The notes under the pieces: generated by a model
Told to the model about the DNA's origin: nothing
Databases searched by the model: none
Seen by the model: the letters and a program-made list of their open reading frames with translations, nothing else
DNA from: Coprobacter fastidiosus
GTDB taxonomy: Bacteria > Bacteroidota > Bacteroidia > Bacteroidales > Coprobacteraceae
Assembly (NCBI RefSeq): GCF_030296935.1
Contig: NZ_AP028032.1
Coordinates: 3,038,001-3,102,000 of the forward strand
Length of the DNA stretch: 64,000 nt
Reading direction: 5' to 3'
Shown: positions 7,684 through 49,791 of the stretch, piece by piece
Position numbering within the stretch: the stretch's first letter is position 1
Layout: every line of letters begins with the position of its first letter
Made by a program: the position numbers and the translations under genes

Positions 7684-7859
7684 AGAGCCTGTTTAAATTT
7701 TCCAATAAAAAAATACTATCAGGTCTTTTTTTGTGTTCTCTTCCGGTCTTTTCCCCTGTTTTCCCTTGTCAGATAGCCCGCTATCCTCCTCGTAAAAACA
7801 GAAAAACATACTCGGAAGAAATTCTCAAAACTGACCCGAATAAAGTTTAAACAGGCTCT
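7684..7859 (+). repeat. Repeat element copy B (full length, 176 bp)
   Basis: Starts AGAGCCTGTTTAAATTTTCC and ends AAAGTTTAAACAGGCTCT, so the ends are inverted repeats of about 17 bases. The interior has ATCAGGTC, CTTCCGGTC, a small palindrome GATAGCCCGCTATC, and CAGAAAAACATACTCGGAAG. It has no open frame. It closely matches copy D at 24129-24303. The form is that of a MITE-like, non-autonomous element. Confidence 0.85.
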
Positions 7860-11472: not shown

Positions 11473-11524
11473 AGAGCCCGCTTAAATTTTCCGACAAAAC
11501 AATGTTGTAAGAAAATTTAGACAG
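11473..11524 (+). repeat. Repeat element copy C (short, about 52 bp)
   Basis: Begins AGAGCCCGCTTAAATTTTCC and ends GAAAATTTAGACAG, so both ends of the element are present with almost all of the interior gone. It sits between the divergent mannosidase and gdhA genes. Confidence 0.65.
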
Positions 11525-29632: not shown

Positions 29633-30835
29633 TCAAATCTCCGTTTGTTCGATTGCTTCTTTTAACAAGCTTTCTATATCTGTGGGCATTTCTGATCCGT
29701 ATTTCTTCAAAAAAGCCTCCTTTGCCATCTCTATAGGACTGATTTTCTTAAACTCGTCATAATTTATTATCCGTTGCTCGCTTGATCCGGAAACAACCGC
29801 CGATTTTCGCAAAATACGAGTAAGACGTACTTGTTTATTCTCCAGTGCTTGTTCTATTTTATAATTAAGAGACGGTTCAGGACCATCGACCGATACAAGC
29901 ACCTCTATATAATTTTTTGAAGACGGGTCTATACTATCTATTGCCTGTAAAACTTTATCTATCGGTTCGGCTGTTTCGGGTATTGATTGCAGAGGAATCG
30001 GTGCATCGAAGATTTCTCGGTGTATATTTATAACTTTGTTTTTCTCTAATTCGATGACTTCGATACCGTGCTTATAATTTTTTTCAGCGAAAGACATCGG
30101 CAAAGGACTTCCGGCATAACGGACATTTTCTCGTTTCGAGACACGCTGTCCTTTGTGCAAATGGCCGAGAGCCGTGTAAGAAATGTCGGGAGCAAAGGCT
30201 TCGGGAGAAATGCACTCCAAACCGCCGATTACGGTACGTTCGCTCTGGTCGTCTTCTGAAATCTCAGATCCTGTGGCCTGCAAATGTCCCATAGCGATAA
30301 TCATTTGGTCGTGTTCTGCATGCTTCAAAGCCTCGTTATATATGGCGTTATACAGATTTTTTATACCTTCTGCGTAACTGTCTGAAGGAGGATAATCTCC
30401 TTGTCTTATGTAGGGGACAGCCATACACCAAATGAGGATATTTCCCTCTTTATCATAAATGGGAACTAACAAATCTGAGTAGTCGATTCCGTCTTCATTT
30501 CTTTTTATAACACCTTTGATCGTGATGTTCATCGATTCCAACAAAGGCATGGGAGCTTCCAAGCGGGCAGCCGAGTCGTGGTTTCCCGATATGATTATGA
30601 TTTGCAGTTGCGGATTTTCTTCAGTGGCCTTTCTCAGAAAATGGTAAAATAAACGTTGTGCCGAGGCCGGAGGATTAGGAGAATCGAAAACATCTCCGGC
30701 AATGAGCAGGGCATCGGCTTTTTCCCTTTTTATTACAGCACACAGCCATTCAAAAAACATTTGATGTTCGTTGTCTCGGTTATACCCGTAAAATGATTGT
30801 CCGATATGCCAGTCTGCCGTATGAATAAGTTTCAT
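29633..30835 (-). CDS. sbcD: Exonuclease SbcD, Mre11-like nuclease subunit
   Basis: A 400-residue metallophosphoesterase nuclease partner of SbcC. The phosphoesterase motifs are MKLIHTADWHIGQ (residues 1-13), ALLIAGDVFDSPNPPASA, IIIISGNHDSAARL, MAMGHLQATG-like IIAMGHLQATG and YTALGHLHKGQ. The C-terminal capping and SbcC-binding region follows. I chose the ATG at 30835; an in-frame TTG at 30862 would add nine residues not found in the family, and the -7 box overlaps it. sbcD is first in the sbcD-sbcC operon. Confidence 0.95.
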   Translation of the reverse strand: MKLIHTADWHIGQSFYGYNRDNEHQMFFEWLCAVIKREKADALLIAGDVFDSPNPPASAQRLFYHFLRKATEENPQLQIIIISGNHDSAARLEAPMPLLESMNITIKGVIKRNEDGIDYSDLLVPIYDKEGNILIWCMAVPYIRQGDYPPSDSYAEGIKNLYNAIYNEALKHAEHDQMIIAMGHLQATGSEISEDDQSERTVIGGLECISPEAFAPDISYTALGHLHKGQRVSKRENVRYAGSPLPMSFAEKNYKHGIEVIELEKNKVINIHREIFDAPIPLQSIPETAEPIDKVLQAIDSIDPSSKNYIEVLVSVDGPEPSLNYKIEQALENKQVRLTRILRKSAVVSGSSEQRIINYDEFKKISPIEMAKEAFLKKYGSEMPTDIESLLKEAIEQTEI

Positions 30836-30867: not shown

Positions 30868-30900
30868 CAAAACAAATTTGATTTATCCGTGTTTTTATAG

Positions 30901-30937
30901 CCTGACTGAATTACTTTATCGGAAAATTTAAACGGGA
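30901..30937 (-). repeat. Repeat element copy F (left-end fragment)
   Basis: On the minus strand CCCGTTTAAATTTTCCGATAAA... then TCAGTCAGG matches the first 37 or so bases of the element (GCCTGTTTAAATTTTCCAATAAA...ATCAGGTC). Confidence 0.5.
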
Positions 30938-31140
30938 TTTATTTGTCAGGAGTTTAATAGATATAGAAATATCTTTAAAGTTCTATATTTGTGATACATT
31001 GGTAGAATAGATGAAAGGAATTTTGAAAGAGGAAATTTCAAATCTCGTTATCGGATTTATTTTGTAAAAACTGTTAATAAAGCAGGTGAAATTATATCAA
31101 ATACCGCAGTCATTAGATAACTTTGTAGAAAGTAGGACTG

Positions 31141-31188
31141 GATTGTTTCAAAATAAGTTTTACAGATGTTTTGAAACAATCTTTTTTT
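31141..31188 (+). terminator. Orphan intrinsic terminator upstream of the dsbD-like gene
   Basis: A perfect 13-bp stem GATTGTTTCAAAA / TTTTGAAACAATC with a 15-base loop is followed by TTTTTTT on the plus strand. The nearest upstream gene is on the other strand, so it ends either a small RNA or a leader of the downstream gene. Confidence 0.75.
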
Positions 31189-31269
31189 CGGCTTTTCTGT
31201 TAATTATATAGAGTTATTTTCTATGGATCAGAAAATTCCGGTAGTGTGAGATGTAAGTTAAAAAACTAA

Positions 31270-33324
31270 ATGATAATGAAGAAATTATTTTCGCTGTTGT
31301 TTCTTTTGTGTGTGAGTGTTATAAGTTATGCCCAAATTATCGAGGCGGTACATTGGCGTTTTTCTGTAAAGGATATTTCCGGTTCTGAAAAAGAACTTGT
31401 ATTTACTGCCAATATGGATGACGGATGGCATCTTTACGGAATGAATATTCCGGATGGAGGACCTGCGGCAACAACATTTTCATTCGATGAGATACATGGT
31501 GCGGTCTTAGATGGCGGGGTAACCTCGTCGTCTCGTCTGATAAAAAAATATGATAAACAGTTCGAAATGGAACTCAGTTGGTATGAAAAGCAGGCCGTAT
31601 TTATTCAGAAAATAAAATTGACAGCACCGACATTTTCTATAACGGGTAATGTGAGGGCAATGGCTTGTAATGACCAGAGTTGTCTTCCTCCGACGACTGA
31701 GGAGTTTACTTTTACGGGAAAAGGTACTCCTGCAGAAGCAACGAAGCCGGAGTCTTTACAAAAAGAAAATATAAAATCAACATTTGAACCGGAACAAAAG
31801 AGCGGAATTTTGAAAGCCGATACACTTATGGCTGCCCGGGTTGTTGCTGTCGATTCTGCTACTGTTCACACAAAGAATTCGGAAAACGATTTGTGGACTC
31901 CGGTAATAGATGAGCTCAATGCTTTTGGCGAGAATGGCGGAACTACCGAAAGATCGCTTCTGATTATTTTCTTTTTGGGATTCGGCGGAGGTTTGCTTGC
32001 CTTGCTTACTCCCTGCGTGTGGCCTATGATCCCGATGACTGTAAGTTTTTTCTTGAAACGTACGAAAGATCGTAAAAAATCGATAAGGGATGCTGTTATG
32101 TACGGTATTGCCATTATCGTTATTTATGTAGTGTTAGGTTTGATTATTACGGCTATTTTCGGGGCGAGTGCTTTGAATAATTTAGCGACGAATGCAATAT
32201 TCAATATTATATTCTTTGCATTGTTGGTACTGTTTGCCATATCATTTTTCGGAGCGTTCGAATTAACATTGCCGGCTTCATGGACTACAAAGCTGGATAG
32301 TAAAGCCGATGCAACTACCGGTATTTTGAGTATCTCTTTTATGGCATTTACTTTGGTTTTGGTATCTTTCTCTTGTACCGGTCCTATTATCGGTACGCTT
32401 TTGGTTCAGGCGGCATCGATGGGTGAAATTGCCGGACCTGCGATCGGAATGTTGGGATTTGCAGTAGCATTATCTATTCCCTTCTCTTTGTTTGCCATAT
32501 TCCCTTCTATGCTCAAGTCGATGCCTAAATCGGGGGGGTGGTTGAATTCTGTAAAAGTGGTATTAGGCTTCTTAGAACTGGCTTTGGCTTTAAAATTCTT
32601 GTCTGTTGCCGATTTGGCTTATGGCTGGCATATCCTTGACAGAGAGGTATTCGTGACTTTATGGATTATTATTTTTACTTTATTGGGATTTTATTTACTC
32701 GGTAAAATTAAATTTTCTCATGACAGTGATATAAAATATGTCTCTGTACCACGCCTTTTTATGGCAATTATTTCTTTCGCATTTGCTATTTATATGATTC
32801 CCGGCTTATGGGGAGCGCCTTTGAAAGCGATCAGCGCATTTACTCCTCCGTTGAATACACAAGACTTTAATCTTTATAAGGAAGAAGTACATGCCAAATT
32901 TACGGATTATGATGAGGGTATGGCGTATGCCAAGAAAGTTAATAAACCGGTTATGATCGATTTTTCCGGATTCGGTTGTGTGAATTGCCGGAAAATGGAG
33001 GCTGCTGTATGGACTGATCCGGCCGTAAAAGCGATGATCGATAATGATTATGTGTTGATTACTTTAATGGTAGATGACAAGACTCCGTTATCTGAACCGG
33101 TAAAAATAGAAGAGTATGGAAAGATGCGTACGCTTCGTACGGTAGGGGATCGTTGGAGTTATTTGCAACGGTCGAAATTCGGTGCTAATGCACAACCGTT
33201 TTATGTTTTATTGGATACCGATGGTTATCCTATAGCTCCTCCGTATTCTTATAATGAGGATATTTCCGCTTATTTGAATTTCTTAAAAGGAGGAATCGAA
33301 ACTTTCGAGAATAGAATCAAGTAA
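31270..33324 (+). CDS. Protein-disulfide reductase, DsbD family
   Basis: A 684-residue membrane protein that passes electrons from cytoplasmic thioredoxin to the periplasm. An export signal (MKKLFSLLFLLCVSVISYAQ, from the ATG at 31276; 31270 is an alternative) precedes a periplasmic N-terminal beta domain (to about 200, with ACNDQSCLPPTTEEF). The membrane core has eight or so helices (about 235-530), with LLTPCVWPMIPMTVSFFLKR and FSCTGPIIGTLL carrying the paired cysteines. The C-terminal thioredoxin-like domain has FGCVNCRKME (C570, C573). All six redox cysteines of a DsbD are therefore present. It may recycle periplasmic thiol proteins; an exported methionine sulfoxide reductase occurs elsewhere in the window. 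It is monocistronic. Confidence 0.9.
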   Translation: MIMKKLFSLLFLLCVSVISYAQIIEAVHWRFSVKDISGSEKELVFTANMDDGWHLYGMNIPDGGPAATTFSFDEIHGAVLDGGVTSSSRLIKKYDKQFEMELSWYEKQAVFIQKIKLTAPTFSITGNVRAMACNDQSCLPPTTEEFTFTGKGTPAEATKPESLQKENIKSTFEPEQKSGILKADTLMAARVVAVDSATVHTKNSENDLWTPVIDELNAFGENGGTTERSLLIIFFLGFGGGLLALLTPCVWPMIPMTVSFFLKRTKDRKKSIRDAVMYGIAIIVIYVVLGLIITAIFGASALNNLATNAIFNIIFFALLVLFAISFFGAFELTLPASWTTKLDSKADATTGILSISFMAFTLVLVSFSCTGPIIGTLLVQAASMGEIAGPAIGMLGFAVALSIPFSLFAIFPSMLKSMPKSGGWLNSVKVVLGFLELALALKFLSVADLAYGWHILDREVFVTLWIIIFTLLGFYLLGKIKFSHDSDIKYVSVPRLFMAIISFAFAIYMIPGLWGAPLKAISAFTPPLNTQDFNLYKEEVHAKFTDYDEGMAYAKKVNKPVMIDFSGFGCVNCRKMEAAVWTDPAVKAMIDNDYVLITLMVDDKTPLSEPVKIEEYGKMRTLRTVGDRWSYLQRSKFGANAQPFYVLLDTDGYPIAPPYSYNEDISAYLNFLKGGIETFENRIK

Positions 33325-49755: not shown

Positions 49756-49791
49756 AAAAAACAGGCTATCCTTAATGATAGCCTGTTTTTT
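49756..49791 (-). terminator. Intrinsic terminator of rpsA
   Basis: A perfect 15-bp stem AAAAAACAGGCTATC / GATAGCCTGTTTTTT with a 6-base loop; it is symmetrical, so it can stop both strands. It begins 17 bases past the rpsA stop. Confidence 0.9.

Follow-up and report, generated by a model that had tools for sequence, protein, structure and literature searches.

The divergent gap between sbcD and a dsbD-like gene of Coprobacter fastidiosus holds a promoter-like box, a hairpin with a run of T and a short spacer, all on the plus strand and all ahead of dsbD, and a sister species has these parts in the same order. With modest confidence, we take this to be a putative lineage-specific terminator in the 5' leader of dsbD, which would be a fairly ordinary kind of control and of a known type. 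Positions are those of the window, the 64,000-nucleotide stretch of DNA that was analysed, and the features needed below are the following.

29633 to 30835, minus strand: sbcD, divergent, with a TIGR00619 match above cut-off and its ATG at 30835
30867 to 30860, minus strand: the -7 box of sbcD itself, TACATTTG, kept in the sister species according to the alignment
31056 to 31082, plus strand: conserved block with the core TGTAAAAACTGTTAATAAA, located some 40-60 nt upstream of the -7 box
31096 to 31125, plus strand: promoter region with the -7 box TAACTTTG (31118-31125) at its 3' end, kept in the sister
31131 to 31188, plus strand: predicted short terminated RNA of about 55-60 nt, deduced from the box at 31118 and the hairpin with its T-run
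31141 to 31181, plus strand: terminator hairpin, 13 Watson-Crick pairs and a 15-nt loop, read directly from the sequence
31141 to 31153, plus strand: 5' arm of the hairpin, GATTGTTTCAAAA
31154 to 31168, plus strand: loop of the hairpin, 15 nt
31169 to 31181, plus strand: 3' arm of the hairpin, TTTTGAAACAATC
31182 to 31188, plus strand: terminator T-run, seven T (eight in the sister)
31189 to 31269, plus strand: spacer from terminator to dsbD, with no TAnnTTTG, low conservation and no structure above chance
31270 to 33324, plus strand: dsbD-like gene, start at 31270 or 31276, with the Pfam domains DsbD_N, DsbD_TM and Thioredoxin_7

The gene behind the gap, which the initial annotation had described as running the other way, turned out to be SbcD on the minus strand, and SbcC comes after it. 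On the other side of the gap lies the gene for a thiol-redox membrane protein. All three Pfam domains of this dsbD-like product score above their cut-offs, and the NCBIfam DsbD model gives the product 149 bits, under that model's cut-off of 330. There are two in-frame ATG codons for dsbD, at 31270 and 31276; in the sister a counterpart exists for the second alone, and 31276 may therefore be the true start. The next gene after dsbD is PepSY-like and begins 309 nt past the dsbD stop.

The hairpin itself was already known from the initial annotation as a perfect 13-bp stem followed by seven T, on the plus strand and before the dsbD-like gene, and a fresh reading of the sequence gave the same result. 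With flanking bases the stem extends to 15-16 pairs upon folding, and a 61-nt RNA that contains it folds at -16.1 kcal/mol (z -3.44, with one of 200 shuffles equally good). It has the stable stem and the T-run of a leader terminator and is oriented with the downstream gene, dsbD, at a distance of 81-87 nt, as against 306 nt to the start of sbcD. That this is a chance hairpin devoid of function is scarcely credible. The stem is AT-rich and is known from two species only, but 100 dinucleotide shuffles of the window, searched on both strands, gave not one comparable stem (perfect over at least 10 bp, loop of 3-20 nt, at least six T in seven), and the pairing survives six substitutions between the two species. 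The real window has four stems of this kind, and the other three lie just past the ends of genes on the same strand. Our terminator scanner was limited to loops of 3-8 nt, and the hairpin with its 15-nt loop is therefore absent from the scanner's list. No Rfam family reached its gathering score anywhere in the window, and around the sbcD/dsbD gap every match with E up to 10 stayed below its own gathering score. At 49760-49787, between two minus-strand genes, there is another hairpin, near-symmetric and with T-runs on both strands, which is likely a two-way terminator.

The sister species (G003, an uncultured Bacteroidales MAG and one of four same-genus genomes compared) has a DsbD that is 82% identical and the same sbcD/dsbD order as the window. 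The gap was aligned with this genome only, that is, over two sequences. Window positions identical in the sister amount to 31 of 41 over the sbcD start and its promoter, 60 of 180 over the upstream stretch (insertions scored as differences), 24 of 27 in the block at 31056-31082 and only 3 of 13 in the nucleotides that follow it, 32 of 38 in the promoter block 31096-31133, 4 of 7 just before the stem, 37 of 48 over the hairpin plus T, and 41 of 81 over the spacer, which has no conserved promoter island. The T-run is also present in the sister, whose box reads TACTTTTG; a TTTG lies 23 nt before that box (-33) and is missing from the window. The block at 31056-31082 is possibly an upstream promoter element or the site of a regulator.

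The extended stem is fully paired, at 15 of 15 positions, in each of the two species. Nine of these pairs are unchanged, six have a substitution on one side that makes or removes a G-U pair, and none differs on both sides. Under a null of six random single changes, the probability that no pair is broken is 1.5e-5, 2.6e-4 and 1.4e-3 with transition weights of 1, 2 and 4, respectively. Slid alignments pair in 32-66% of cells, versus 100% for the true stem, and the sister hairpin also folds well below its shuffles (z -3.17). A shuffle control of the pairing equalled the observed values in 500 of 500 cases and is uninformative, since the alignment has two sequences. The loop sequence differs between the window and the sister, and the few nucleotides before the stem are partly alike.

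As for promoters, the plus strand between 30800 and 31400 has only two TAnnTTTG octamers, TATATTTG at 30984-30991 and TAACTTTG at 31118-31125, which are the same two boxes that had been noticed before the hairpin. The consensus is that described for Bacteroides (PMC7366714, excerpts). The box at 31118 is kept in the sister. The one at 30984 is not kept in the sister alignment and would start a longer RNA without structure above chance before the hairpin. One could imagine that this first box gives rise to a leader, or an RNA, some 190 nt long, with UUUUGAAA at 31021-31028 as a possible antiterminator pairing with the 5' arm of the hairpin. The box is present and the 8-nt complement to the 5' arm occurs once in 30991-31140, but both the box and the 31021-31028 stretch are missing in the sister, and the RNA from 30997 to 31139, before the hairpin, is no more stable than its shuffles (z 0.26), so we consider this longer leader improbable.

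Behind the hairpin, the initial annotation saw no promoter box before the gene, and indeed 31189-31269 has no octamer within one mismatch of TAnnTTTG. The sister spacer holds two such one-mismatch boxes. Neither spacer has structure above that of its shuffles (z -1.11 in the window, z -0.38 in the sister), and the nearest TAnnTTTG to dsbD lies at -152 in the window and at -148 in the sister, before the hairpin. With a conserved promoter in front of the terminator and nothing recognisable behind it, dsbD would most simply be read through the terminator. The same layout bears on the notion that the hairpin is an insulator against stray plus-strand transcription of the divergent gap, with neither a short RNA nor the control of dsbD involved. 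A position between divergent genes, in an AT-rich gap with several promoter-like boxes, would suit an insulator; nevertheless, the hairpin follows a conserved promoter instead of separating that promoter from something to be shielded, and it would sever dsbD from its only recognisable promoter, which makes this role very improbable.

For the leader terminator of dsbD, we infer the start site, termination, read-through and any regulation from the parts described above. Transcription from the 31118 promoter would start about 10 nt before the stem; the start at about 31131 is placed from the box with a box-to-start spacing that we assume. RNA polymerase would then reach the hairpin and the T-run almost immediately, and many transcripts would stop at about 31183-31188, giving an RNA of 55-60 nt. 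The remaining transcripts would pass the terminator and continue into dsbD, as a message whose leader measures about 140 nt, and the terminator would thereby hold down or gate dsbD. Read-through could be a fixed fraction, or it could be set by a factor acting on the polymerase or on the hairpin. No sensing or antiterminator element is visible in the roughly 10 nt between the presumed start (about 31131) and the terminator, a length that leaves no room for a riboswitch, a leader peptide or the usual antiterminator; regulated read-through, if it occurs, would accordingly need another factor. The initial annotation had offered a choice, in which either a small RNA ends here or the gene is read by passing the terminator. 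On the present reading the two options would be a single unit, and both may well be right, each issuing from the promoter at 31118.

The searches of relatives with DNA, protein and covariance models covered the source genome and 59 others, four of them of the same genus. With E up to 0.001, DNA searches matched the leader in G003 only. The remaining matches were to a repeat in G001, to a short stretch of 38 nt in G020, and to 30 nt from the 3' part of the hairpin in G059; the place matched in G059 is not a comparable hairpin. A covariance model made from the two sequences (promoter plus hairpin) gave E of 1e-15 or lower solely in the source genome and G003, and with stricter filters all its matches elsewhere had E of at least 0.1, two weak ones in G003 itself included.

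The upstream regions were scanned at 25 relatives' loci in which the match reached the protein start, out of 29 found. With G003 set aside, 19 of 24 relatives carry a TAnnTTTG at most 81 nt from the dsbD start and the other five have none at that distance either, so that a missing box is no proof of a missing promoter. A hairpin with T lies within 400 nt of dsbD at 7 of the 25 loci, and G003 alone among the seven has a box before the hairpin and none after it, the box of the others lying behind the hairpin or at its end. In a scan of 80 loci of named genomes, where two rows had less than 400 nt upstream and starts were unrefined if the match began inside the protein, four had a hairpin with T: L065, which is the contig of G003; L134, with a box after the hairpin; L082, with a box overlapping the tail; and L107, with no box. 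The leader arrangement is kept at one of the 25 relatives' loci and at one of the 80 named-genome loci, the same MAG both times. Among the dsbD loci compared, with flanks of at most 1.5-2.5 kb, sbcD was found beside dsbD only in the window and in G003.

These comparisons also bear on the main rival to the leader terminator, in which the segment from 31118 to 31188 is a small RNA gene in its own right, about 55-60 nt long and acting elsewhere, and dsbD is transcribed from a separate, unrecognised promoter located behind the hairpin. A promoter followed by an intrinsic terminator is the canonical layout of intergenic small RNAs in B. thetaiotaomicron (PMC7366714, excerpts), and the five of 24 relatives that have no TAnnTTTG near dsbD make a boxless promoter possible. 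On the other hand, the loop is unconserved, the spacer has neither a conserved island nor, in the window, a one-mismatch box, and the searches gave no copy elsewhere and no Rfam family. The conserved unpaired seed expected of a small RNA is absent from the loop, which differs between the two species. We regard an independent gene as a lesser but serious possibility. Under the leader terminator reading, too, the short RNA could act in trans, with a loop that lacks conservation.

The source genome has a second dsbD-like gene at genome position 887396-889339, and G003 likewise has two; the two copies are 43-44% identical in their main segment. In both species the second copy has TATCTTTG 32-33 nt before its ATG, and neither this copy nor its G003 counterpart has a hairpin with T within 400 nt. 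The upstream neighbour of the second copy resembles, by eye, the gene beside dsbD in G001 and G002, yet the DsbD proteins of these two genomes are nearer (65-66%) to the copy in the window, and gene order and sequence kinship therefore disagree.

Within the same genome, the window and a sample of 400 kb were surveyed for hairpins with T, using a home-made finder and gene caller. Of the 109 sites found, five fall in one of the 42 divergent gaps and face the gene in front of them. The dsbD-leader hairpin has the lowest folding energy among these five; it and one other carry a TAnnTTTG 22-24 nt upstream of the stem and lack one downstream. A second divergent gap with a box, a hairpin with T-run and a gene in the same order was seen at about 5300-5510 of L160; its stem is weaker, at -9.8 kcal/mol, and may be chance.

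When the whole 416-nt gap was searched against the genome with E up to 10, nearly all of the 44 matches belonged to a dispersed repeat, and those to the hairpin part had E of at least 0.36, the hairpin's own reverse complement apart. Elsewhere in the genome the two conserved upstream blocks occur only with three mismatches, in 9 and 3 copies, near the 10 and 1 of a reversed-pattern control, and the block at 31056-31082 has no further genome copy above that control. The repeat lies at 30899-30942 (core 30916-30938) and also at 7686-7708 and 11475-11497, with GAGCCTGTTTAAATTTTCCGATAA on the other strand. If up to three mismatches are allowed, the genome has 21 occurrences of its 23-nt core, and the reversed control has none. 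Among the longer copies the shared sequence reaches up to about 180 bp and stops sharply on one side; a search within 1.5 kb turned up no inverted partner. The repeat is present in the same-genus G001 too and may be what is left of one end of a mobile element. An inserted element was rejected as the source of the hairpin, since the repeat is missing from the sister gap, where the hairpin is present.

We would also mention a more far-reaching, and unlikely, possibility. The leader could represent an aptamer-free, factor-dependent attenuator of the Bacteroidota, in which a redox-responsive factor would act on the stem or on the just-initiated polymerase to control dsbD. One of the two copies would then be set by read-through, without a repressor, and the conserved blocks before the promoter would be part of a loading site. 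For the leader terminator in general, if that reading is right, one of two dsbD-like genes would be gated at a step beyond initiation and the other would depend on an ordinary promoter close by, and a single reporter could serve to test how the periplasmic reducing pathway is controlled. The link to oxidative stress has the family of the dsbD gene as its sole basis. As a short, sensor-free leader terminator, the region would make a simple case for study, of modest import and in two species.

Literature searches on dsbD with terminator, attenuation or leader, and on Coprobacter with small RNA and terminator, found no paper. The excerpts of PMC6158253 contain nothing on a dsbD leader, and the excerpts of PMC2965389 contain neither "Bacteroid" nor "dsbD". 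There are nonetheless several known systems that the dsbD leader resembles in part. The mobile attenuators, in which terminators of insertion elements lie before cellular genes (PMC2965389, excerpts), come to mind because of the dispersed repeat at 30899-30942 in the same gap; unlike in those, the hairpin is about 200 nt from the repeat, and the sister keeps the hairpin in a gap without it. Intergenic small RNAs of the GibS type (PMC7366714, excerpts) share the promoter and the intrinsic terminator in an intergenic gap, but the RNA predicted here is far shorter, lies right before a gene on the same strand, has an unconserved loop and has no known target. Another resemblance is to the small RNAs derived from 5' UTRs in B. 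thetaiotaomicron (PMC7366714 and PMC10994844, excerpts), whose start is shared with the message and whose short product ends before the coding sequence. Those RNAs were mapped by RNA-seq and one was confirmed by Northern blotting, whereas that of dsbD is predicted only, and among those described in the excerpts no sequence relative of it was recognised. Leaders longer than 100 nt are found in 13.5% of B. thetaiotaomicron messages, a minority (PMC7366714, excerpts), and a dsbD leader of about 140 nt would thus fall within that class. The last comparison is with the 5' leader terminators and attenuators surveyed by Naville and Gautheret in 2010 (PMC2965389, excerpts). Unlike these attenuators, the dsbD leader lacks an antiterminator or a sensing structure ahead of the stem and is not kept across a wide family. 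Like them, it has an intrinsic terminator oriented with the downstream gene, and with 81-87 nt to dsbD and 306 nt to sbcD it agrees with both distance rules of that survey, by which a candidate is at most 300 nt from the first codon and closer to the downstream than to the upstream gene.
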